Assembly (NCBI GenBank): GCA_017303895.1
Contig: JAFLBF010000018.1
Span: 1-64,000, forward strand
DNA from: Bacteroidota bacterium
GTDB lineage: Bacteria; Bacteroidota; Bacteroidia; 2-12-FULL-35-15
DNA: 64,000 bases
Direction: 5' to 3'
Every line of letters begins with the position of its first letter. Positions within the stretch are counted from its first letter, which is position 1. Under the pieces are notes generated by a model. The model saw nothing but the letters and a program-made list of their open reading frames with translations, had not been told where the DNA came from and did no database searches. Shown here piece by piece: positions 37,624 to 54,886 of the stretch. The translations under genes and the position numbers were made by a program.

Positions 37624-38478
37624 GTGGTTAAAAGAATACGTTCGATTGCCGGTTACTGGTGGAGATTGTTTTTTGGTTTGTTCAAAAAAGCTGGTCAAAC
37701 TATTGATCATATGCGGGCTAAACCGTCTGAAACTCCTGTAATTATTATGGGGCATCAAAAGACAGGAACCACTGCCATTGCTGCTTTACTTGGGAAAGCA
37801 ACCGAAAAAGAAGTTTCAATAGATCCTTTTTACAGGACTCCCAAAAAGCACATTGTTTTGCCAAAGTTGTATGAAAACAAATTATTGCTATCTGACTATA
37901 TCAGATCAAATGCCTATTTGTATAGGCCTCAGATAATTAAAGATCCGGAATTTGTATTCTTTTATAAAGAATTAAAGGAAATATATACGGATTCAAAATT
38001 TGTTTTTATAATACGTAATCCATTTGATAATATTAAGAGTATTCTTGACCGGTTAAAGATTCCTGGAGATATTGACGATTTTAATGAGACCTTGTTCCCG
38101 GAGGTAATGAATACATGGGATTGGATGGAATTATTGCGTGGTGATCTTTCAAATGTTAAAGGGAATAATATTATTGAGACCTTGGCATTGAGATGGGTGT
38201 TTTGTGCTAATTTATATCTGAATAATAAAAATGATTTCATATTAGTAAAATATGAAGAGTTCAGAGAAGATAAAATAGGTATAATTAATAATCTCATTGA
38301 AAATATTAATGATGAAATTAAACAGGATATTTCATCGATTATGAATAAACAATTTCAGCCCAAGGGTGAAAATTCATCCATAAGTCCCCAGTTTTTTTTT
38401 AGTAAAAAAAATTATGACATAATAGCAGAAATATGTGAGAAGTTATACTTTGAGATATATAAGAGAAATTTGCACTGA
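37624..38478 (+). CDS. PAPS-dependent sulfotransferase
   Basis: 284 residues; the start is GTG 37624, giving VKRIRSIAGYW. The 5'-phosphosulfate binding loop is clear in IMGHQKTGTTAIAALLGKA (the GxxKTGTT motif), and the 3'-phosphate binding segment in FVFIIRNPFDNIKSILDR. The protein therefore transfers sulfate from PAPS, probably to a hydroxyl of a polysaccharide sugar. No PAPS synthesis genes are in the window. Sulfated exopolysaccharides are known from marine bacteria, so the locus may make an anionic polymer. It lies between two glycosyltransferases. Confidence 0.85.
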   Translation: MVKRIRSIAGYWWRLFFGLFKKAGQTIDHMRAKPSETPVIIMGHQKTGTTAIAALLGKATEKEVSIDPFYRTPKKHIVLPKLYENKLLLSDYIRSNAYLYRPQIIKDPEFVFFYKELKEIYTDSKFVFIIRNPFDNIKSILDRLKIPGDIDDFNETLFPEVMNTWDWMELLRGDLSNVKGNNIIETLALRWVFCANLYLNNKNDFILVKYEEFREDKIGIINNLIENINDEIKQDISSIMNKQFQPKGENSSISPQFFFSKKNYDIIAEICEKLYFEIYKRNLH

Positions 38479-44368: not shown

Positions 44369-45802
44369 ATGCTGTTTAACTCTATTGATTTTCTTTTATT
44401 TTTTCTTGTAGTAACAACTGCCTATTTTGCGCTGCCTCATAAATTTCGTTGGCTATTGTTATTGATATCGAGTTGTTATTTTTATGCAGCTTTTGTTCCA
44501 ATTTATATACTTATTTTATTTGTAACAATTGTTATAGATTACTATGCTGGTATTTTTATTGAAAAAGCACCTGCACATTATAAAAAAAGGATATTATTAA
44601 TTAGTATTTTGGCGAATGTTGGAATATTAATGTTTTTTAAATACTATAATTTTTTTATAGATAATATCAATTCTGCTTCTTCTTACTTTGGTGCGAACTT
44701 CAGCTTTCCTCTTTTAAGTATAATTTTGCCAATTGGCTTGTCTTTTCATACATTTCAGGCAATGAGTTATACTATTGAGGTCTACCGAGGGAATCAAAAG
44801 GCGGAAAAACATTTTGGAATTTATGCTCTATATGTTATGTTTTATCCTCAATTGGTAGCCGGACCAATTGAAAGGCCACAGAATGTCTTGCATCAATTTC
44901 ATGAAAAGAAGAGGTTCGATGCTGAAAAATTATGGGTGGGATTGCGATTAATGCTTTGGGGACTGTTTAAAAAAGTAGTAATAGCTGACCGATTGTCTTT
45001 GCTGGTTGATCGTTTGTTTGAGAATCCCGGGGAATATAATTCTCCTCTTCTAATTGTTGGAGCTGTTTTTTTTGCAATTCAGATCTATTGTGATTTTTCG
45101 GGGTATTCTGATATGGCGATAGGTGCAGCAAAAACTATGGGTTTTGAACTTATGACTAATTTTAATAGGCCATATTTTGCCTCAAATATTAAAGCTTTTT
45201 GGGATCGCTGGCATATTTCACTTTCCACATGGTTTAGAGATTATGTCTATATTCCTTTAGGTGGAAATAGAGTGAATGAATATCGATTGTATTTGAACTT
45301 TTTTATTGTTTTTATTTTAAGTGGATTTTGGCATGGAGCTAATTGGACTTTTATCGTCTGGGGCAGCTTGCATGCTATTTATGTTTTATTGAATATGTTT
45401 ATTGTAAAGCGGTTTGATTGGTTTGGTCTAAAGGATAATATGATGTTTAAATTTGCTGGCTGGATCTTTACTTTTTGCTTAGTAGTTTTCGCATGGATCT
45501 TTTTTAGAGCCAGTTCTATGGATAATGCAATGGAATATATTTCTTCACTTTTTGCAAATATTTATATGCCCTTGCAACTAAAGCTTCCTCAAGTGGCAGA
45601 TGAGTTAGGGTTTGGTTATATGAGTTATGGTATTTCTGTTTTTTCTATATTAATATTAGTATTGGTGGAGCTTAAAGTTCAGCCAAGATTTGAAAATAAT
45701 TTTGTTTTAAAAAAAGATGTTGTTTTTTCAAGTGTAATTCTTTTGCTCGTAATGTTTTTTGGCGTCTTTCAAAAATCTAGTTTTATCTATTTTCAGTTCT
45801 AA
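44369..45802 (+). CDS. MBOAT family membrane O-acyltransferase (AlgI-like)
   Basis: 477 residues with about ten or more membrane helices. Landmarks are YFALPHKFRWLLLLISSCYF at the start, LSFHTFQAMSYTIEVYRG, YPQLVAGPIERPQNVLHQF, DRWHISLSTWFRDYVYIPLG, and the catalytic His of LSGFWHGANWTFIVWG. Family members such as AlgI and DltB pass acyl groups across the inner membrane to a periplasmic partner. The SGNH-like gene starts at the stop codon of this one (1-base overlap), which fits an AlgI/AlgJ or DltB/DltD type pair. Confidence 0.95.
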   Translation: MLFNSIDFLLFFLVVTTAYFALPHKFRWLLLLISSCYFYAAFVPIYILILFVTIVIDYYAGIFIEKAPAHYKKRILLISILANVGILMFFKYYNFFIDNINSASSYFGANFSFPLLSIILPIGLSFHTFQAMSYTIEVYRGNQKAEKHFGIYALYVMFYPQLVAGPIERPQNVLHQFHEKKRFDAEKLWVGLRLMLWGLFKKVVIADRLSLLVDRLFENPGEYNSPLLIVGAVFFAIQIYCDFSGYSDMAIGAAKTMGFELMTNFNRPYFASNIKAFWDRWHISLSTWFRDYVYIPLGGNRVNEYRLYLNFFIVFILSGFWHGANWTFIVWGSLHAIYVLLNMFIVKRFDWFGLKDNMMFKFAGWIFTFCLVVFAWIFFRASSMDNAMEYISSLFANIYMPLQLKLPQVADELGFGYMSYGISVFSILILVLVELKVQPRFENNFVLKKDVVFSSVILLLVMFFGVFQKSSFIYFQF

Positions 45803-46740
45803 TGAAATATATTTATAGAATATTTGCTGTTCTCGTCATATTCGTTTTTTTTAGCTCAATGTTGTATTTATTGCTAAACAATGGCTTGAAGAATTATTCT
45901 TTTAATACGACAAGCAAATTTTATGAAATGTTTGTAGATGATGAAGCGTATGATGTCCTTTATCTGGGCACATCTAGAACATTTCAGAATATTGATGTTC
46001 AGATATGTGACTCTATTACAGGCAGAAAAAATTATAATTTAGGTATGGGAGGGGCCGGTGGATTTGAGATATTATCTGTGTTTAAAGCTTTTCTTCAAGT
46101 CCATCCAACTCCAAAAAATGTTGTTTTAAATTTTGATAGAAATATATTGGATACTTTAAGAGGATTTCATAATCCCATTCCTTATTTCAATCACTTAAAT
46201 AATGATGAAGTAAACAAGACTCTTAAAGAGAAAGGCTATCCGGTATGGTTTTATAAAAATGTACCTTTTACTAGAGTGGTTGAGTTTAATGATGATACCC
46301 GTAATAATTGTATTAGAGGGTTATTGGGGAAAAAAGATAGCCACAATAAAGGGTATCATGGTTTTTTACCAAATTATGAGAAAATTGGTAAGTTTGATAC
46401 TGTTTACAAGACTAAAACAATGATCGGTCACTCCAAGGGGAATTTTAGATATGTAGATTCAATTGTTGAGATATGCCAAAAGCAGGGCATAAATTTAATT
46501 TTTGTAGTGTCACCTGTATATAAAAAGCACTTTTCAAAAAGATACTTAGATTATGATCTCATTATGGGAAAAGTTAAAACGGAATACAATCAAGGAAAGG
46601 GTATTCCCATTCTTTTTTTTGATACTTTACCCCTTAATTTCAATAAGTCTTATTTTGCCGATAATATTCATTTGAATCGAATTGGGACTACCCAATTTAG
46701 CATAGTTTTGAGTCAGAAAATAATGGAAGTGCTTAAATAG
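45802..46740 (+). CDS. SGNH-hydrolase-like membrane-anchored protein, MBOAT partner
   Basis: 312 residues. An N-terminal hydrophobic anchor (FAVLVIFVFFSSMLYLLL) is followed by a periplasmic domain: YDVLYLGTSRTFQNIDVQIC holds the nucleophile Ser in the GTSR block, GGAGGFEILS a Gly-rich oxyanion segment, and FADNIHLNRIGTTQF the D-x-x-H type catalytic block. The overall pattern is the SGNH/AlgJ-AlgX or DltD group that works with MBOAT proteins to acylate extracellular polymers. Catalytic assignments are by pattern. It directly follows MBOAT. Confidence 0.8.
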   Translation: MKYIYRIFAVLVIFVFFSSMLYLLLNNGLKNYSFNTTSKFYEMFVDDEAYDVLYLGTSRTFQNIDVQICDSITGRKNYNLGMGGAGGFEILSVFKAFLQVHPTPKNVVLNFDRNILDTLRGFHNPIPYFNHLNNDEVNKTLKEKGYPVWFYKNVPFTRVVEFNDDTRNNCIRGLLGKKDSHNKGYHGFLPNYEKIGKFDTVYKTKTMIGHSKGNFRYVDSIVEICQKQGINLIFVVSPVYKKHFSKRYLDYDLIMGKVKTEYNQGKGIPILFFDTLPLNFNKSYFADNIHLNRIGTTQFSIVLSQKIMEVLK

Positions 46741-46809: not shown

Positions 46810-47493
46810 ATGAATAGTGTTATTACTTTTCTGATGGATAATTTTTCGGGTTTTTCTCCGAAAAACATTCCTTCTTTTATTTTTAGCCTTGTTATTTGTG
46901 CTGTTTTATCCTATTTATTAGGAAAGATCTATGCAAAATATGGTAACTCACTCTCAAATAGAAGATCTTTTGCAAGGAATTTTCTCCTTTTGGCACTTAC
47001 TACTATGTTCATTATTACGGTAGTAAAATCTTCTTTAGCACTTTCTTTAGGTTTGGTGGGTGCTTTATCGATCGTCCGTTTTCGTGCTGCCATCAAAGAG
47101 CCGGAGGAACTTACTTATTTGTTCCTAAACATTGCCATTGGTTTGGGCTGTGGTGCCGGTTTATCACTGTTAACCATCATTGCATTCATTGGCTTTTATG
47201 TGTTTATTCGTTTTAGCAACCGTAAACAGGATGAGTTGGAAGAACAAAGTTTATATCTGAATATCTCTTCTGCCGGAAACGGAGCTGTTCATATTCCTGC
47301 AGTAGTTGCTGTTTTGGAAAAGAATTGCAATTTTTTAAAATTAAAACGCACGGATGAATCCCCTGATCGTTTTGAACTTTCTTTTTTGATCGGATTGGAA
47401 AATATTGATGCGCTGCAAAAAATTAAAGAAGAGATCAGAGTTTTGTATCCCAATGCAGTTGTGTCGCTCTTGGATTCTTCCCGTGATTTTTAA
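46810..47493 (+). CDS. DUF4956 membrane protein
   Basis: About 227 residues from ATG 46810; an in-frame TTG at 46747 is a poorer choice. The first 110 residues carry about three hydrophobic helices. The family hallmark is SLGLVGALSIVRFRAAIKEP followed by EELTYLFLNIAIGLGCGAG. The C-terminal 90 residues form a soluble alpha/beta domain. The family has no established function, but members tend to be encoded beside VTC-domain and CotH-like proteins, as here (established association as I recall it; not checked). The VTC gene starts 17 bases on. Confidence 0.9.
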   Translation: MNSVITFLMDNFSGFSPKNIPSFIFSLVICAVLSYLLGKIYAKYGNSLSNRRSFARNFLLLALTTMFIITVVKSSLALSLGLVGALSIVRFRAAIKEPEELTYLFLNIAIGLGCGAGLSLLTIIAFIGFYVFIRFSNRKQDELEEQSLYLNISSAGNGAVHIPAVVAVLEKNCNFLKLKRTDESPDRFELSFLIGLENIDALQKIKEEIRVLYPNAVVSLLDSSRDF

Positions 47494-47510
47494 TCTTTTG
47501 ATCAATCATT

Positions 47511-48197
47511 ATGGAGCAGGAATTAAGATACGAGCGTAAGTTTTACGTTACCGGCACTTCACTGGCGAGTATGCTTCATCTTATTCGAATTCATCCGGCC
47601 CTGTTTTCTGAAATTTTTCAGCAACGTCAGATCAATAATATCTATTTTGATTCTCCTGGTTTTGAAAGTTATTACGATAATATGGATGGGGCTCATCATC
47701 GTATCAAAGCTCGAATTAGATGGTATGGGGAGACATTTGGCCCGGCTAAGAAGCCTACGCTTGAATTTAAGATCAAGAAAGGTTTATTAGGGTTCAAAAG
47801 AAATTTTGTATTGCCTGATTTTGTAGTGGATACCAATATTACGAAAGATAAATTACTAAAATTAATGCTGGGTGCTGTGGGAGACGAACAGTTGAGAGCA
47901 TATCTTTTCAAAGTTCATCCTGTATTGTTGAATGTGTACACCCGCAAGTATTTTATAACTGCCGATAAAAAGATCCGGTTAACCATTGATACCGGACTTC
48001 ATTATTATTCGATCATGAATGAGGGCAGCTTATTTATTTCACCTGTAAAGGATGATAAAGGAATAGTAATTGAAATGAAATACGATAAGGATACCGAATT
48101 ATTAGCGGATCGTATCTCATCTGAATTTCCTTTTTTAATGACCAAAAATTCTAAATATCTGCAAGGTGTTAGTCGTGTGTTAGGATTGGAGCTGTAA
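47511..48197 (+). CDS. VTC-domain (polyphosphate polymerase-like) protein
   Basis: 228 residues, the compact triphosphate-tunnel fold. The charged residues that line the tunnel in VTC4 can be followed: YERKFYV (start), RIKARIRWYGE, PTLEFKIKKG, VYTRKYFIT, IRLTIDTGLHYYS and VIEMKYDKD. The active-site basic and Glu residues thus appear intact. VTC4 makes inorganic polyphosphate from ATP in yeast vacuoles; bacterial homologues remain poorly studied. No membrane segment, so it would act in the cytoplasm beside the DUF4956 membrane protein. The CotH gene follows after six bases. Confidence 0.9.
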   Translation: MEQELRYERKFYVTGTSLASMLHLIRIHPALFSEIFQQRQINNIYFDSPGFESYYDNMDGAHHRIKARIRWYGETFGPAKKPTLEFKIKKGLLGFKRNFVLPDFVVDTNITKDKLLKLMLGAVGDEQLRAYLFKVHPVLLNVYTRKYFITADKKIRLTIDTGLHYYSIMNEGSLFISPVKDDKGIVIEMKYDKDTELLADRISSEFPFLMTKNSKYLQGVSRVLGLEL

Positions 48198-48203
48198 TTC
48201 ACT

Positions 48204-49931
48204 ATGAAAAATATCAAGAGAAAAAATAAAGAAAGTGCATCAAGGACAAACCGCTTGTTTATCCTGCTTAGTTTTTCTGCTCTGATGATTGCTTTTGCAT
48301 TTTATCAATTGATGGGGCCGGGTAAAAAAGTGAATGCATTTGTGAAAGATGCCCGGATAGCCTCTCCGGATGTTGATATTCGTACCGGTTATTTTACTTC
48401 AGCCCCTTTACTTCATTTATCATGTCCTGAGGCAGATCATACGATCTATTATACTTTAGATGGTTCCAGTCCGGGAAATTCCCTTGCAATGGTTTATGAC
48501 GGAAATAGTATCCAGTTGCCCGATGAAGTCCTTAAAGATACTTTTTTATATACCATTCCTACATCGCCCCGCTGGCAACTTCCTATGGGTAAAACCTATT
48601 GTTTCCCTGTGTTGAGAGCCGTATGTGTTGATAAAAATGGGAGGTGTGGGCCGGAATTGGTAGAATCCTATATCATTGATCCGGAGAAGCAGCATAATTA
48701 TTCTATTGCTCTTGCTAGTTTTGTTTTCGATCAGGATGCGTTGTTTGGGTATGAGAATGGAATATATGTGATGGGAAAAAAATATGAAGACAAGGATAAT
48801 TATATAAAGAAAAAAATAAAATTTGATATACCATGGTGGAAATATCCTGCAAACTATTTGGATAAAGGTTCATCTTCGGATCGTTTGGTGAATTTATCGC
48901 TGGGGAAATTGAACAAGACTTGTTTTATGCAAAAGCCAAGTAAGATCAGGATCCATGGTTTTAACACCAGAGGCTTTGCTCAGAAATCAATCCGGGTTTC
49001 ATGGTCGACCTCCTCTGATTCAAGTGCTAAGTGTATAGCGATGTTAAATACACCTTCCACAGAAACGAATTTTGTTTTTAGAAACGGAGGTAATGACTGG
49101 ACCAAAACACTGCTGAGGGATGCCTTTGTGCATCGCGTTATGAAGAATTCTACATTATCAGCACAACAATATGAACCGGTAGTTTGCTTTTTTAATGGAG
49201 AATATTGGGGTATTCATACACTCAGAGAACGTTTTGATGCAACGTATATCTATAGCCATTATGGAATTTCAAAGGATAGTATTGCCTTGCTTGAACTGAA
49301 TGGCCAAGTGGTAGAAGGAGGAAAGTCGGATGCGAATGACTATCTTAATTTAATTGATTATATCCTTTGCAATGATCTATCGGATGATCAAAAATTTGCA
49401 GTAGTTGAAAAAGAGATGGATATAGCCAATCTTATCGATTATTATTTATGCAACATGTTCTTTGTGAATAACGATTGGCCTCATAATAACTGCAAATACT
49501 GGCGCTACAGTTATCCTGCAAAAGATACATTTTATCGCGATAAAAAATGGCGTTATGTGGTATATGATATGGATTGGGCAATGGGATTCAATATCAATAA
49601 AGCCTATGAATTTAATATGTTTGAATACTTGAAAAATGAAAGCAGAATGGGGAAGGTGTTTTATTCACTTCTGAAAAATGCTTCATTTAAGAGTCGATTA
49701 AGGTCCCGCGCAGAGTATTTGCTTGAAAATGAGTTCGCTGAAAGAACTTTAATCGCTACCTTTACTAGCATGGAGGCAGAGATCGGCTCATATATGGACG
49801 AACATATTAAGCGATGGAGAGTGATTGGCTCAAAACAAAATTGGGAGAATAATATGTCAGATCTGAAGAAATTTTTAGCTAAAAGACCCAAGATCTTTCT
49901 GAAACAATTAAATAGTACATTAGATAAATAG
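48204..49931 (+). CDS. CotH-kinase-like protein with chitobiase-type N-terminal domain
   Basis: 575 residues. An N-terminal anchor (LFILLSFSALMIAFAFYQLM) is followed at about 55-155 by a beta domain of the chitobiase/hexosaminidase C-terminal type (the hallmark is TIYYTLDGSSPGN). A CotH-kinase domain covers about 220-500: SKIRIHGFNTRGFAQKSIRV, NPGEYWG-like FFNGEYWGIHTLRERFD, NDWPHNNCKYWRY, and YVVYDMDWAMGFN, whose Asp residues (about 454) match the metal/ATP-binding Asp of CotH. CotH of Bacillus phosphorylates spore-coat proteins on Ser. Here the kinase would act outside the cytoplasm, so ATP supply is a puzzle. Confidence 0.88.
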   Translation: MKNIKRKNKESASRTNRLFILLSFSALMIAFAFYQLMGPGKKVNAFVKDARIASPDVDIRTGYFTSAPLLHLSCPEADHTIYYTLDGSSPGNSLAMVYDGNSIQLPDEVLKDTFLYTIPTSPRWQLPMGKTYCFPVLRAVCVDKNGRCGPELVESYIIDPEKQHNYSIALASFVFDQDALFGYENGIYVMGKKYEDKDNYIKKKIKFDIPWWKYPANYLDKGSSSDRLVNLSLGKLNKTCFMQKPSKIRIHGFNTRGFAQKSIRVSWSTSSDSSAKCIAMLNTPSTETNFVFRNGGNDWTKTLLRDAFVHRVMKNSTLSAQQYEPVVCFFNGEYWGIHTLRERFDATYIYSHYGISKDSIALLELNGQVVEGGKSDANDYLNLIDYILCNDLSDDQKFAVVEKEMDIANLIDYYLCNMFFVNNDWPHNNCKYWRYSYPAKDTFYRDKKWRYVVYDMDWAMGFNINKAYEFNMFEYLKNESRMGKVFYSLLKNASFKSRLRSRAEYLLENEFAERTLIATFTSMEAEIGSYMDEHIKRWRVIGSKQNWENNMSDLKKFLAKRPKIFLKQLNSTLDK

Positions 49932-49936
49932 GATCA

Positions 49937-51259
49937 GTGTTAAGTTATTTAAAAGAGAACATACAATTATTCATGATCTTCAGTGTCTGGCTAATTACCG
50001 GCATGTATGGCGGCCCTATTATTTATGGTATTTTGCCTTTGTCTATACTTTTATTGGATCGAAAGAAAATGTATGAAGAGATGATTATTGGTTATCTTTT
50101 TATTTTGATCCTTTCTGATAGCGCTATTCCTCAGTTGTTTTTTGCAAAAAACATTAAAAATATTTATATATCTATTCTTGCACTTATATTTTTATTAAGG
50201 CTTGAGTCGTTTAATCGATCAAGTATCTTATTTAAAATTTTTATTCCATTTCTTGCATTTTCAATTCTTACCATGTCGATGAGTATTAACGATGATTATT
50301 TTTTTATTAGTATTCAAAAAACCATTTCTTTTTCTCTAACAATTCTTGTTTTGCCATTAATGTTCGTGAAGTTGTATGTAGATAATAAAAATGAGTTTGT
50401 TAAAAAAATAGTCTTTTTTGTGTTTTTTATTCTTCTTATTGGTTTGTTTTTTAGGTATTTAGCTCCAGAGGTAGCCATGCTTAATGGATCAAGATATAGG
50501 GGGGTATTTGGAGGGCCAAATGGATTAGGCGTTTTTTGTGTGTTGTTTTTTATTGTTTTTTTTATTTTTAACAATTATCATTCGGATATTTTTAGTCGTA
50601 GAGAGAGGGTGCTTATTTTTGGAATAATAATTATTTCTTTAGTTTGGTCAGGCTCAAGGAATGCATTGATTGCGATCTTTATCTTTTATACATTTCAGCG
50701 TTTTTTCGGAATGTCACCTTTTTTAGGATTTCTGATATTCATTGTTTTATTATTTGTATCTGAACTTATTAGCAGTAATGCGGCATCAATCATTAATGCT
50801 TTGGGCTTAGGAGAATATTTTCGCGTTCAAACTCTTGAAGAAGGTAGTGGACGATTGATCGCTTGGGGCTTTGCATGGAAACAAATTCAGCATAATTTTT
50901 TTATAGGAAAAGGCTTTGCGTATAATGAATTTTATATGCGTCAGCATTATGGAATGCTTGAAAAGCTGGGTCACCAAGGGGGAATTCATAACTCCTTTTT
51001 GACTTTTTGGTTCGATCAGGGATTAGTAGGTCTACTTATCTATATGCGATCCTATATTTTATTATTTATCAAAGCAGCTAAAAAAACAAAATTCGCCTTC
51101 CCGGCTATGTTTGCCATTAGTTTTACCGCTTTCTTTGAGTCTTGGCTGGTAGGTTCATTAAGTGCCTTTGCTTTTATGGGAATTTTTATCTTTACCATCT
51201 TAACCAGTGATGAGATCATTCCACAGGAAACAGAAGTAGTTCCTGCAATTGCAGAATAA
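49937..51259 (+). CDS. O-antigen ligase / Wzy-polymerase family membrane protein
   Basis: 440 residues starting at GTG 49937, six bases after the CotH stop; an ATG at 49973 is also in frame. About ten or eleven membrane helices. The Wzy_C/WaaL region has a large periplasmic loop around GSGRLIAWGFAWKQIQHNFF, IGKGFAYN and the conserved His of HQGGIHNSFLTFWFDQGLVG. The family ligates or polymerises undecaprenyl-linked glycans. Because an ABC exporter is also present, it may act as a ligase or belong to a second assembly step. It separates two CotH-like genes. Confidence 0.9.
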   Translation: MLSYLKENIQLFMIFSVWLITGMYGGPIIYGILPLSILLLDRKKMYEEMIIGYLFILILSDSAIPQLFFAKNIKNIYISILALIFLLRLESFNRSSILFKIFIPFLAFSILTMSMSINDDYFFISIQKTISFSLTILVLPLMFVKLYVDNKNEFVKKIVFFVFFILLIGLFFRYLAPEVAMLNGSRYRGVFGGPNGLGVFCVLFFIVFFIFNNYHSDIFSRRERVLIFGIIIISLVWSGSRNALIAIFIFYTFQRFFGMSPFLGFLIFIVLLFVSELISSNAASIINALGLGEYFRVQTLEEGSGRLIAWGFAWKQIQHNFFIGKGFAYNEFYMRQHYGMLEKLGHQGGIHNSFLTFWFDQGLVGLLIYMRSYILLFIKAAKKTKFAFPAMFAISFTAFFESWLVGSLSAFAFMGIFIFTILTSDEIIPQETEVVPAIAE

Positions 51260-51264
51260 AGACC

Positions 51265-53853
51265 ATGAAAATAAAAGATCAGATAAATATTCAAAAGATT
51301 AATGCCGGCCGCAAAAGAAAAAGTCGTTGGGTGTTTTTATTATTGCTGTTGCTTGGTCTTATTTTAGGAAATACAGTTGCTACCAGAGTGCTAAAACCTA
51401 AAGGCTATTCTAGTCTTTGGAATTTTCTGACTACTGTTGCTACTAATTATTATTCGGGGTTGGATGCACAACCGGAAAAAATTGCTATAGAGATCAATAG
51501 CAAAGATTTTAAGAAATTAGAGAAAAACCGTCAAAATGCACTTGAGCGTAGAGTGATCATTAATGATCTGGATGGCGAGTATGTGGATGGAGTTTTGCAT
51601 TATAATGGGAAAAAGATCGATATTAAACTGCGCTTGAAAGGTCACATGACCGATCATTTGCAAAATAATAAATGGTCGTTCCGGATAAAAGTAAAAGAGA
51701 AAGATGAGACCTTCATGGGTATGAAACGATTTACCATTCAGCATCCTGGTACCAGAGGCTATATTTATGAATGGATCTACCATACTTTAATGAAGCAGGA
51801 AGGTGTTATTGCATTGCGCTATGATTTTATTAATGTGAAGGTCAATGGTGAGGATTGGGGAGTCTATGCAGTAGAGGAAAATTTTGAAAACGAATTGATC
51901 GAAAATAATCAACGTATTAAAGGCCCCGTGCTTCGCTATAATCCTGATCTGTATTGGGTAAATCGCTATAATGGACTTACAGGAATGTACTCGGCCGATG
52001 AATTTGCCCGTTATTATTCAGCCGATCCTCAAGCTTATAGAGAAGAAAAGGTGTTGAAAGATAGCTTGCAAAAACACTACTACTTGAAAGCAATTGCCAT
52101 GATCGAAGGTTTGAGAGCGAACAAGATCGCTGTTGATGAAGCCTTTGATATTCCCCGTTTAGCAAAATTTCATGCGATCATTGATCTAGTAGGCGGGGTA
52201 CATAGTATTGATTGGAGTGATATAAAATATTATTACAACCCTGTTACAGCAAAGTTAGAACCTGTAGCCTATGAAAGTTTTACTGTACTTGGTTCGAAGG
52301 AACTTTCTTCTCAATATATGTTTGTTAACTTGGATTCGAGTCAAAATTATTCCGAATGGCATGAAATGATCTTCAGTAACAAGGTGTTCTTTAAAGAATA
52401 TATGAAGCACCTGGAGCGGATATCGCAACCTTCTTATCTGGATGCATTTTTTGACATGTCGAATGTGGAATTAAAGAAAAAGTTAGCAATTATTCATAAA
52501 GAATTTCCGTATAAGAAATTTGATAAAAACGATTATTATAAACGCCAAAAACAAATTCTGCATATATTAAATCCACCAAAGGCTTTGCACGCATACTTGA
52601 ATAGAGTAGAAAATAATATAGCCGAATTGCAAATTGCTGCTATTGATGCTCTTCCCGTTAGTATAATCTCAATTGAATTAGATGGGAAACAATTTTTACC
52701 TGAAAAAGAGATTATTTTGCCGGCCAAACAAAAAGGTAAAGCACTTGAATATAAAAATTACAGGTTTGGCCTAAAGCGTACACCCTCATTAACGGTTGAT
52801 CTGCTCGACTCATTAAAAATTAATTATGCGGTATTAGGAGCATCAAAAGTAAAACAAACGCGTGTATTCCCTTATCCACATACTGATAATGAGTTTTTAA
52901 AAGAGGAGCAAAAAAATAAAATAAGTACGGTCTCCGGTTTTGATTTTTTAACTGTTGTAGATTCTACTCACTCTATTTTTATGAAGGAAGGAAAGAATGT
53001 GTTGGAAAAAGATCTGATCATTCCGTCTGGTTATACTTGTTATGTAAGTGCTGGAACTCAAATTGATCTAAGGAATATGGCAAAGATCATTTCGTATTCT
53101 CCATTCATAGTTATGGGCTTGGAAGAGGATCAGGTGGTATTCTCTTCTTCAGATTCATCTTCTCAAGGGATTCAGTTTATAAATGCCGGAGCTTCGAAAT
53201 TCAAAAACGTTGTTTTCAAAAATTTTGCCCGTGTAAACGATCCACAATGGAAAAGAAGTGGGGCGATCACTTTTTATGAATCCCTTGCCGATTTTGCTAA
53301 TTGTAGTTTTTATGATTTCAGATCGGAAGATGCCTTGAGCTTTATTCGTTCTGATTTTAAGATCACTACTTCTTTATTCCGGGGAATGAAGGACGATGGA
53401 TTAGATGCTGATTTTTCGAAAGGAGAGATCAAAAATGTGGCTTTTGAGAACTGTAAGGAAAATGGTATTGATGCTACTTTTTCTACATTAACGCTGAATT
53501 CGGTATATTTTTCCGGCTCAGACAATAAAGCCATTAATGCAAAAGATGGTTCGGAATTATTCCTGAGTGATGTTGTTGTAAAAAGATCAACAATTGCTAT
53601 TTCTGCGGAAGATCTGGCACTGGTGCATTTTAAAGAATTGACAATATCAGATTGTGATTATGGGCTTGTGTCTTACAAGAACAAGCCATCAGCAGGGCAT
53701 GCGAAGGTTGAAGGGGCTGTATTGAAATTTTCAAATGTAAAAGAACATTATTTACAAGAGCGTAAATCTAAAATATTGGTGGATGGGAAAGTGGTAGACA
53801 AAGAAATAGAAGATGTTGAACTGATCATTAAAAAAGGTGAAAAGAAAAAATAA
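51265..53853 (+). CDS. CotH-like protein with right-handed beta-helix C-terminus
   Basis: 862 residues. One membrane anchor at about 20-40 (WVFLLLLLLGLILGNTVATR). A CotH-like domain spans about 70-450: IEINSKDFKKLEKNRQNALE, IKLRLKGHMTDHLQNNKWSF, VNVKVNGEDWGVY-type motifs, GGVHSIDWSDIKYYYNPVTA, LEPVAYESF. The DMDW motif of the other CotH gene is not evident. At 600-800 a series of short strands (FKNVVFKNFARVNDPQWKRS, FANCSFYDFRSEDALSF, IKNVAFENCKENGIDATFS) forms a parallel beta-helix, a fold used for carbohydrate binding or lysis. It ends within the start of the phosphoesterase gene. Confidence 0.83.
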   Translation: MKIKDQINIQKINAGRKRKSRWVFLLLLLLGLILGNTVATRVLKPKGYSSLWNFLTTVATNYYSGLDAQPEKIAIEINSKDFKKLEKNRQNALERRVIINDLDGEYVDGVLHYNGKKIDIKLRLKGHMTDHLQNNKWSFRIKVKEKDETFMGMKRFTIQHPGTRGYIYEWIYHTLMKQEGVIALRYDFINVKVNGEDWGVYAVEENFENELIENNQRIKGPVLRYNPDLYWVNRYNGLTGMYSADEFARYYSADPQAYREEKVLKDSLQKHYYLKAIAMIEGLRANKIAVDEAFDIPRLAKFHAIIDLVGGVHSIDWSDIKYYYNPVTAKLEPVAYESFTVLGSKELSSQYMFVNLDSSQNYSEWHEMIFSNKVFFKEYMKHLERISQPSYLDAFFDMSNVELKKKLAIIHKEFPYKKFDKNDYYKRQKQILHILNPPKALHAYLNRVENNIAELQIAAIDALPVSIISIELDGKQFLPEKEIILPAKQKGKALEYKNYRFGLKRTPSLTVDLLDSLKINYAVLGASKVKQTRVFPYPHTDNEFLKEEQKNKISTVSGFDFLTVVDSTHSIFMKEGKNVLEKDLIIPSGYTCYVSAGTQIDLRNMAKIISYSPFIVMGLEEDQVVFSSSDSSSQGIQFINAGASKFKNVVFKNFARVNDPQWKRSGAITFYESLADFANCSFYDFRSEDALSFIRSDFKITTSLFRGMKDDGLDADFSKGEIKNVAFENCKENGIDATFSTLTLNSVYFSGSDNKAINAKDGSELFLSDVVVKRSTIAISAEDLALVHFKELTISDCDYGLVSYKNKPSAGHAKVEGAVLKFSNVKEHYLQERKSKILVDGKVVDKEIEDVELIIKKGEKKK

Positions 53854-54886
53854 ACGATATTCACTGTTTTCATTTGCTTTTTGGCTGAACTGCATTTTAT
53901 TGTCGGCACAAACAAGTCCGTTCAATGGTGTAGTCATAAAAGACTCATTGAAAGATTACCATTTTGTGGTGAGCGGGCATTTTCACGGTCAGTCCAATAA
54001 TGGTTCAACCTTTCCTGCGGCAACAGTGCTGAGTAGTATTGATACCTTGAATGCTATTCAGCCTGCTTTTATGATGAGTTTAGGCGATCTCTTTATAGAT
54101 GTGGATGATGTGTATCTCGACCATTACAAAACAAGTCTTTTTAGCAAATTGAAATTTCCTCTTTTTAATGTAGTAGGCAATCATGACATTTCGAATGGCA
54201 ATAGGTATGAGAAGGAATTTGGTAAAAGTTATTCTACATTTATTATTGGTTCAGAGTTGTTTATTTTGTTGGACACAGAAATGGATGATGGTAGCATTGA
54301 AGGAGAGCAATTAATTATGTTGAAGACAGCGCTATCTTCTGTTAAAGAGAAAAACATTAGCAATATATTTGTTTTTAGTCATAGACCTATTTGGGCTGAA
54401 CGGATAGAAAAGTATAATAAATTGTTTTTAGAAAATACACGTACAGCACTTGGAAAGAATAATTTTTCAGAAAAGATCTTACCATTATTGCAAGCTCATA
54501 AAGATGTAAATATATTTTGGATGTCGGGCTCTATGGGGGGGGGACCAGCTTCATTTTTTTACGATAAAAATCAGGAATTGGGTATTACCTTTATTCAAAC
54601 AGCTATTCGTGATACACCAAGGGATGCAATGCTGAAAGTAAATGTAAAAAATGGGGAAGTGCATTTTGAAGGGATAAGTTTGACCAATCAAAAATTAGAG
54701 AAGATAGATTCCTATGGTATCGATCTTTGGTTGAAAGACGCTAAGCCTGAAACCGGTTTTTCATATCGTCTGATCCCTTTATATATTAAAAACATGCTGT
54801 TGCATCGCTACTTTTGGTATGGTATTATAACTTGCATTGGCATATTATTTTTTGTTCGGCTTTTGCTAAAAAGAAAAAACAGATGA
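53837..54886 (+). CDS. Membrane-anchored metallophosphoesterase
   Basis: 349 residues starting at GTG 53837, overlapping the CotH-like gene by 17 bases. A signal peptide (YSLFSFAFWLNCILLSAQ) puts the catalytic domain in the periplasm, and a C-terminal helix (YGIITCIGILFFVRLLL) anchors it. Calcineurin-like motifs: GDLF (about 81), GNHD (about 114) and FSHRP (about 180). The usual D-x-H of motif I reads HFHG (about 48), and the final GHxH box reads SGSMGGG, so part of the metal centre is changed. It overlaps the next gene by 4 bases (ATGA). It could remove phosphate added by the CotH-like kinases. Confidence 0.86.
   Translation: MKRKNKRYSLFSFAFWLNCILLSAQTSPFNGVVIKDSLKDYHFVVSGHFHGQSNNGSTFPAATVLSSIDTLNAIQPAFMMSLGDLFIDVDDVYLDHYKTSLFSKLKFPLFNVVGNHDISNGNRYEKEFGKSYSTFIIGSELFILLDTEMDDGSIEGEQLIMLKTALSSVKEKNISNIFVFSHRPIWAERIEKYNKLFLENTRTALGKNNFSEKILPLLQAHKDVNIFWMSGSMGGGPASFFYDKNQELGITFIQTAIRDTPRDAMLKVNVKNGEVHFEGISLTNQKLEKIDSYGIDLWLKDAKPETGFSYRLIPLYIKNMLLHRYFWYGIITCIGILFFVRLLLKRKNR

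Follow-up and report, generated by a model that had tools for sequence, protein, structure and literature searches.

A conserved DUF4956, VTC and CotH gene neighborhood in a Bacteroidota glycan locus and its possible role in carrying polyphosphate across the envelope

The DNA analyzed here (the window) is a stretch of 64,000 nucleotides from a Bacteroidota bacterium (contig JAFLBF010000018.1). Six of its genes lie on the same strand between positions 46810 and 54886 (Table 1), separated by gaps of 17, 6, 5 and 5 bases and, between CotH2 and MPE, by an overlap of 17 bases; the close packing described in the first-pass annotation was borne out by the list of open reading frames. The families proposed there (DUF4956, VTC, CotH, Wzy, CotH and phosphoesterase) agreed with Pfam, with Metallophos just under its cut-off. 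Open reading frames and Pfam also placed a GT4 glycosyltransferase downstream of the six genes, and an MBOAT protein with a periplasmic partner-like protein upstream. This upstream pair, just 5' of DUF4956 (44369-46740 of the window), is of the alginate O-acetylation type. Elsewhere in the same glycan region, an open reading frame at 37624-38478 looks like a sulfotransferase and contains GHQKTGTTAIAAL close to its N-terminus. A scan for sigma-70 consensus promoters and for terminators gave only the numbers expected by chance, and such consensus sequences are uninformative for Bacteroidota.

Table 1. Genes of the six-gene block and of its immediate upstream context (positions in the window)
Gene	Position	Strand	Domain match
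DUF4956	46810-47493	+	PF16316 1.9e-15
VTC	47511-48197	+	PF09359 5.7e-28
CotH1	48204-49931	+	PF08757 5e-42
Wzy_C, O-antigen ligase/polymerase-type glycan enzyme	49937-51259	+	PF04932 7.1e-13
CotH2	51265-53853	+	PF08757 9.2e-13, Beta_helix 3.6e-8
MPE, divergent calcineurin-like phosphoesterase	53837-54886	+	Metallophos 4.8e-4
MBOAT O-acyltransferase (context, not core)	44369-45802	+	MBOAT 5.1e-24
Periplasmic partner-like protein of MBOAT (context, not core)	45802-46740	+	

Within the genus, 36 genomes contained two kinds of DUF4956, a full-length kind (A, E ~1e-50) and the kind found in the window (B, E ~1e-17). Another 19 loci with DUF4956 of the window kind were read in sister genomes, 15 of them long enough to hold the whole block and 4 running off their contigs. 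The order DUF4956-VTC-CotH1-Wzy-CotH2-MPE was kept in the 15 full-length loci; in some, Wzy and CotH2 are separated by an MBOAT gene, a placement seen in L041-L043. CotH2 occurred in essentially the same sister genomes as the window-kind block. The genome of the window has a second trio on another contig, in which CotH, VTC and a DUF4956 of the A kind are followed by DUF2490 (G000:C12:10878-16231, L040). The CotH of this second trio carries a T9SS sorting domain and a lamin-tail domain.

The association extends well beyond the genus. In a sample of 198 Bacteroidota genomes, VTC was present in 37 and DUF4956 in 59, and all 37 were among the 59; DUF4956 thus also occurs without VTC. A DUF4956 gene was located no more than 5 kb from 42 of the 43 VTC genes in this sample, the exception being a fragment of 54 residues. 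The genome-level co-occurrence of the two families corresponds to 10^-24, a value that ignores shared ancestry and serves as an indication only. A scan of named genomes gave 80 loci in Bacteroidota, Omnitrophota, Planctomycetota, Verrucomicrobia, Patescibacteria, KSB1, Chloroflexi, Deltaproteobacteria, Woesearchaeota, Methanogenium and others. Among 52 long loci of other genera, which were picked by similarity to window-type DUF4956 and therefore give a biased picture of the family, VTC was found in 47, CotH in 48, and both on the same strand near DUF4956 in 44. The core of DUF4956, VTC and CotH spans Bacteroidota to archaea. The most common order in these loci was DUF4956-CotH2-VTC. Wzy_C keeps its position in the sister genomes; elsewhere it follows CotH1 in L130 and VTC in L166.

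Together, the block order in sister genomes, the core in other phyla and the pairing of VTC with DUF4956 are more than chance. The possibility, raised in the first-pass annotation, that the six families are rarely neighbors in related genomes failed decisively against the sister loci, the other-genus loci and the VTC genes of the phylum sample. It is true that glycan loci collect many functions and that the MBOAT gene shifts its position within the block, as would be expected if the genes shared a glycan operon and had no joint function, but this explanation is largely refuted by a core trio that recurs in many phyla and by a VTC that is almost never apart from DUF4956, and we regard it as hardly credible. 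The genes almost certainly form a conserved functional module, in which DUF4956 is very probably the functional partner of VTC.

CotH, a polyphosphate polymerase and DUF4956 were originally described together as accessory genes of Pel operons in Gram-positive bacteria (PMC7112168). In Streptococcus intermedius, where SIR_1592-1594 are the trio, deletion of DUF4956 raised Pel and lowered aggregation, deletion of CotH lowered both, and deletion of VTC had no reported effect on aggregation; in that study the trio was found at Pel loci only (PMC12345266). Our survey contradicts this restriction: the trio is widespread outside Pel loci, and the genome of the window has two trios and no PelG. As in the Gram-positive set, the three families are adjacent and lie in an exopolysaccharide locus, CotH is secreted, and DUF4956 combines transmembrane segments with an ACT domain. 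However, no pel genes are contiguous with the trio in the window, which additionally has a Wzy_C enzyme, a phosphoesterase and a second CotH that lacks a key Asp and carries a beta-helix. A Pel locus was ruled out by the absence of PelG from the genome and by neighbors that are Wzy-type glycan genes. The core itself is not new; the locus is a variant form of a gene set already published, though unexplained.

The VTC protein has 228 residues and consists of the VTC domain alone, with neither an SPX domain nor a transmembrane segment (Pfam and hydropathy); none of 86 relatives has a transmembrane segment. Both the profile match and the tunnel active-site residues place it in PF09359. Residues K10, R68, R70, E85, K87, K96, R145, R156, E188, S214 and K215 were invariant across 43 aligned sequences, and the basic tunnel residues aligned with those of yeast Vtc4 (3g3q), the reference positions being the equivalents of K200, R264, R266, K281, K294, R361, R373, S457 and K458. 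The active-site charges, described as intact in the first-pass annotation, are indeed conserved. The product of VTC is probably polyphosphate. VTC was ruled out as the only route to polyphosphate in this genome, since PPK1 is also present (G000:C1:554307-554858). A candidate VTC fusion of 787 residues in L089 was dismissed: it is an overlapping reading frame that stays open in GC-rich DNA, and the true upstream gene, in a different frame, encodes a HlyD-like adaptor.

In a 2023 review, VTC was covered for eukaryotes, and PPK1 was given as the main enzyme of bacteria (PMC10657179). In yeast, polyphosphate synthesis by the VTC complex is coupled to transit of the chain through a pore lined with Lys and Arg (PMC9911596). 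The bacterial protein has a homologous tunnel domain with matching active-site residues, and the logic proposed here, a polymerase coupled to a membrane protein, would be the same. The two systems differ in that the bacterial polymerase chain lacks the SPX domain and transmembrane segments of the eukaryotic complex, and its membrane partner belongs to the unrelated DUF4956 family.

DUF4956 of the window belongs to PF16316 (57.5 bits against a cut-off of 30.6). Its model consists of five helices followed by a C-terminal domain of beta-alpha-beta-beta-alpha-beta order, which in a fold search resembled ACT/PII-like structures with weak E-values; the matches fell mainly in this domain, and among the matches listed none was convincing for the transmembrane part. 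The match to MgtC (PF02308) was weak (0.036) and, at 14.9 bits against a cut-off of 31.4, does not place the protein in that family, whose layout of a transmembrane part and an ACT-like domain is similar. R90, R92 and K96 are invariant in 51 relatives, and since the yeast pore is lined with the same types of residue, polyphosphate may pass through DUF4956. We consider the case for and against DUF4956 moving polyphosphate across the membrane evenly balanced. In two loci (L099, L100), a DUF4956 without VTC is convergent with a protein bearing the pyruvate-phosphate-dikinase N-terminal domain (PPDK_N), another phosphoryl-transfer family.

Both the ACT-like domain and the resemblance to MgtC would fit a regulator as well as a transporter. 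It is possible, though doubtful, that DUF4956 and VTC form a regulatory pair which senses or signals phosphate or nucleotide state and tunes exopolysaccharide synthesis, with no export. The increase of Pel in the S. intermedius DUF4956 deletion is consistent with such a role. However, VTC retains all polymerase residues, and the occurrence of DUF4956 beside HlyD and OEP or DUF2490 suggests envelope transport.

These neighbors were seen in several arrangements. In a subset of 29 DUF4956 loci of the phylum, 22 had VTC, and of those 7 had a HlyD-like adaptor, assigned from architecture and from profile similarity to a set matching EmrA, and 11 had DUF2490, whose reading as an outer-membrane barrel is based on a weak Pfam overlap. 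CotH, DUF4956, HlyD, OEP and VTC are consecutive in L097. In one other Bacteroidota family (f23), 15 loci have DUF4956, HlyD and an OEP-like gene without VTC. An operon of DUF6580, DUF4956, HlyD, an OEP-like gene and a short-chain dehydrogenase, with no VTC, is conserved in one Bacteroidota family (L102, L103, L189-L201). Porin_O_P sits between DUF4956 and CotH in L091, and an alkaline phosphatase between CotH2 and VTC in L185. Relatives of DUF4956, with or without VTC, thus adjoin EmrA-like adaptors and OEP as do HlyD/EmrA-TolC exporters, and these envelope-type neighbors point to transport through the envelope. However, DUF4956 is no known exporter, and neither the six genes nor the window-type loci of sister genomes include an adaptor, OEP or DUF2490; the adaptor and OEP of a HlyD-TolC tripartite system are present in other DUF4956 operons and absent from this one.

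Hydropathy estimates, rather than a trained topology predictor, detected an N-terminal hydrophobic segment in all 57 CotH2 and in 39 of 44 CotH1 proteins; in CotH1 of the window this membrane anchor covers residues 18-36. Since VTC has no transmembrane segment, the proteins are predicted to lie on opposite sides of the inner membrane, VTC in the cytoplasm and the CotH proteins outside.

CotH1 matches PF08757 and keeps both active-site Asp residues of the family, the NND and VYD Asp aligning with those of Bacillus cereus CotH (5jd9). In the AF2 model of CotH2 (pLDDT 89.5), the N-terminal half has the CotH fold (Z 27.1, rmsd 3.3 and 323 aligned residues against 5jd9; profile E 6e-10), and the C-terminal half is modeled as a right-handed beta-helix of the carbohydrate-enzyme type (Z 27.3 against the beta-helix of alginate epimerase AlgG, 4nk8). 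Single-sequence phmmer searches of CotH1 and CotH2 against the PDB gave no match, so that profiles were required, and a narrow CotH2 profile (A2) gave no match either. At the NFD position, CotH2 has His/Ser or Glu in place of Asp, in the window as well as in 53 relatives spanning every phylum sampled; at the Asp position of the WD motif, Asp or Glu is retained. The D228Q mutant of B. subtilis CotH is catalytically inactive, and D228 is, by its spacing, probably the NFD Asp. Because the canonical catalytic Asp of CotH kinases is lacking in CotH2 throughout this set, a kinase label is unwarranted on present evidence, and the protein may be a pseudokinase or an enzyme with another mode of action. 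Both proteins of the window share the fold of the Bacillus spore-coat kinase; they differ from it in belonging to the envelope instead of the spore coat and, for CotH2, in the missing Asp.

MPE, which has an N-terminal signal and a C-terminal transmembrane segment (326-344), scored 21.1 bits for Metallophos against a cut-off of 21.5. When compared with the calcineurin-like motif set (DxH, GD, GNHD, H, GHxH), it retained GD, GNHD and H, but has GHxH/Y, without Asp, at motif I and SGS or AGD at motif V, and so departs from the full set. The same changes occur in relatives (up to 25). Its activity is therefore uncertain.

These findings bear on the idea that surface proteins or glycans receive phosphate from CotH kinases, with ATP or a different molecule as donor, and that the phosphoesterase reverses the reaction. 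The intact active site of CotH1 and its place in a glycan operon would fit. However, CotH2 lacks its catalytic Asp, MPE lacks two metal motifs and occurs in only 8 of the 52 loci outside the genus, and VTC and DUF4956 are left unexplained, which makes this scheme unlikely. The surface-phosphorylation interpretation of the first-pass annotation therefore survives in part. The conserved neighborhood supports the idea that this glycan locus houses an envelope module concerned with phosphate, and one of the two proposed kinases, CotH1, keeps its active site, but CotH2 does not, the resetting role of the phosphoesterase was not borne out, and the specific mechanism of two kinases plus a phosphatase is weakened. 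In a further scheme, the surface product would be polyphosphate itself, bound to the glycan or interwoven with it, and the CotH proteins would anchor or ligate it and not act as kinases. CotH2, which lacks the catalytic Asp and has a carbohydrate-type beta-helix, is the most common CotH partner outside the genus, in line with this scheme; the kinase residues kept in CotH1 argue against it, and we consider it improbable.

The best explanation, which we hold tentatively, is a trans-envelope polyphosphate module. We infer that polyphosphate is the product, that DUF4956 exports it and that CotH uses it. Cytoplasmic VTC would polymerize the gamma-phosphate of ATP into polyphosphate next to its constant membrane partner DUF4956, which would pass the chain over the inner membrane; the two would correspond, in split form, to the yeast VTC complex, which unites polymerase and pore. 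Beyond this membrane, where there is little ATP, CotH1 would spend the exported phosphate on a surface protein or a Wzy-dependent glycan, CotH2 might hold the glycan and/or polyphosphate, and the divergent phosphoesterase may trim products. The trans-envelope module is favored because VTC and DUF4956 are so consistently paired, the trio extends across phyla, the tunnel residues match Vtc4, the predicted topologies are opposite, the CotH of the second trio is T9SS-tagged, and DUF4956 in relatives adjoins EmrA/HlyD-like adaptors, OEP, DUF2490, Porin_O_P and alkaline phosphatase. Against it stand the S. intermedius deletions, of which those of DUF4956 and CotH, but reportedly not that of VTC, changed aggregation, the occurrence of DUF4956 without VTC, the additional PPK1, the ACT-like domain and MgtC resemblance, and window-type loci that have no adaptor, OEP or DUF2490. 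The step in which CotH uses exported polyphosphate as donor is less secure and, in our judgment, rather unlikely; what speaks most strongly against it is the lack of a reported phenotype for this VTC deletion, although a condition-dependent role is possible.

The present survey corrects the published view of the trio as Pel-bound. It also sets apart a catalytically altered CotH family, CotH2 with its beta-helix, which annotation by domain only would call a kinase. The three-gene core now yields sharp predictions, and the mechanism that we infer for it bears on the supply of phosphate to kinases beyond the cytoplasm and on the exit of polyphosphate from the bacterial cell. Cells with this module may export polyphosphate as a means of modifying or building their surface. 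In its most general form, which we put forward as a doubtful but consequential possibility, VTC-DUF4956 would be a widespread prokaryotic polyphosphate synthase-translocase, and CotH kinases in the envelope, which is poor in ATP, would draw their phosphate from the exported polyphosphate. If true, bacteria and archaea would have a general power supply for phosphorylating targets outside the cell.
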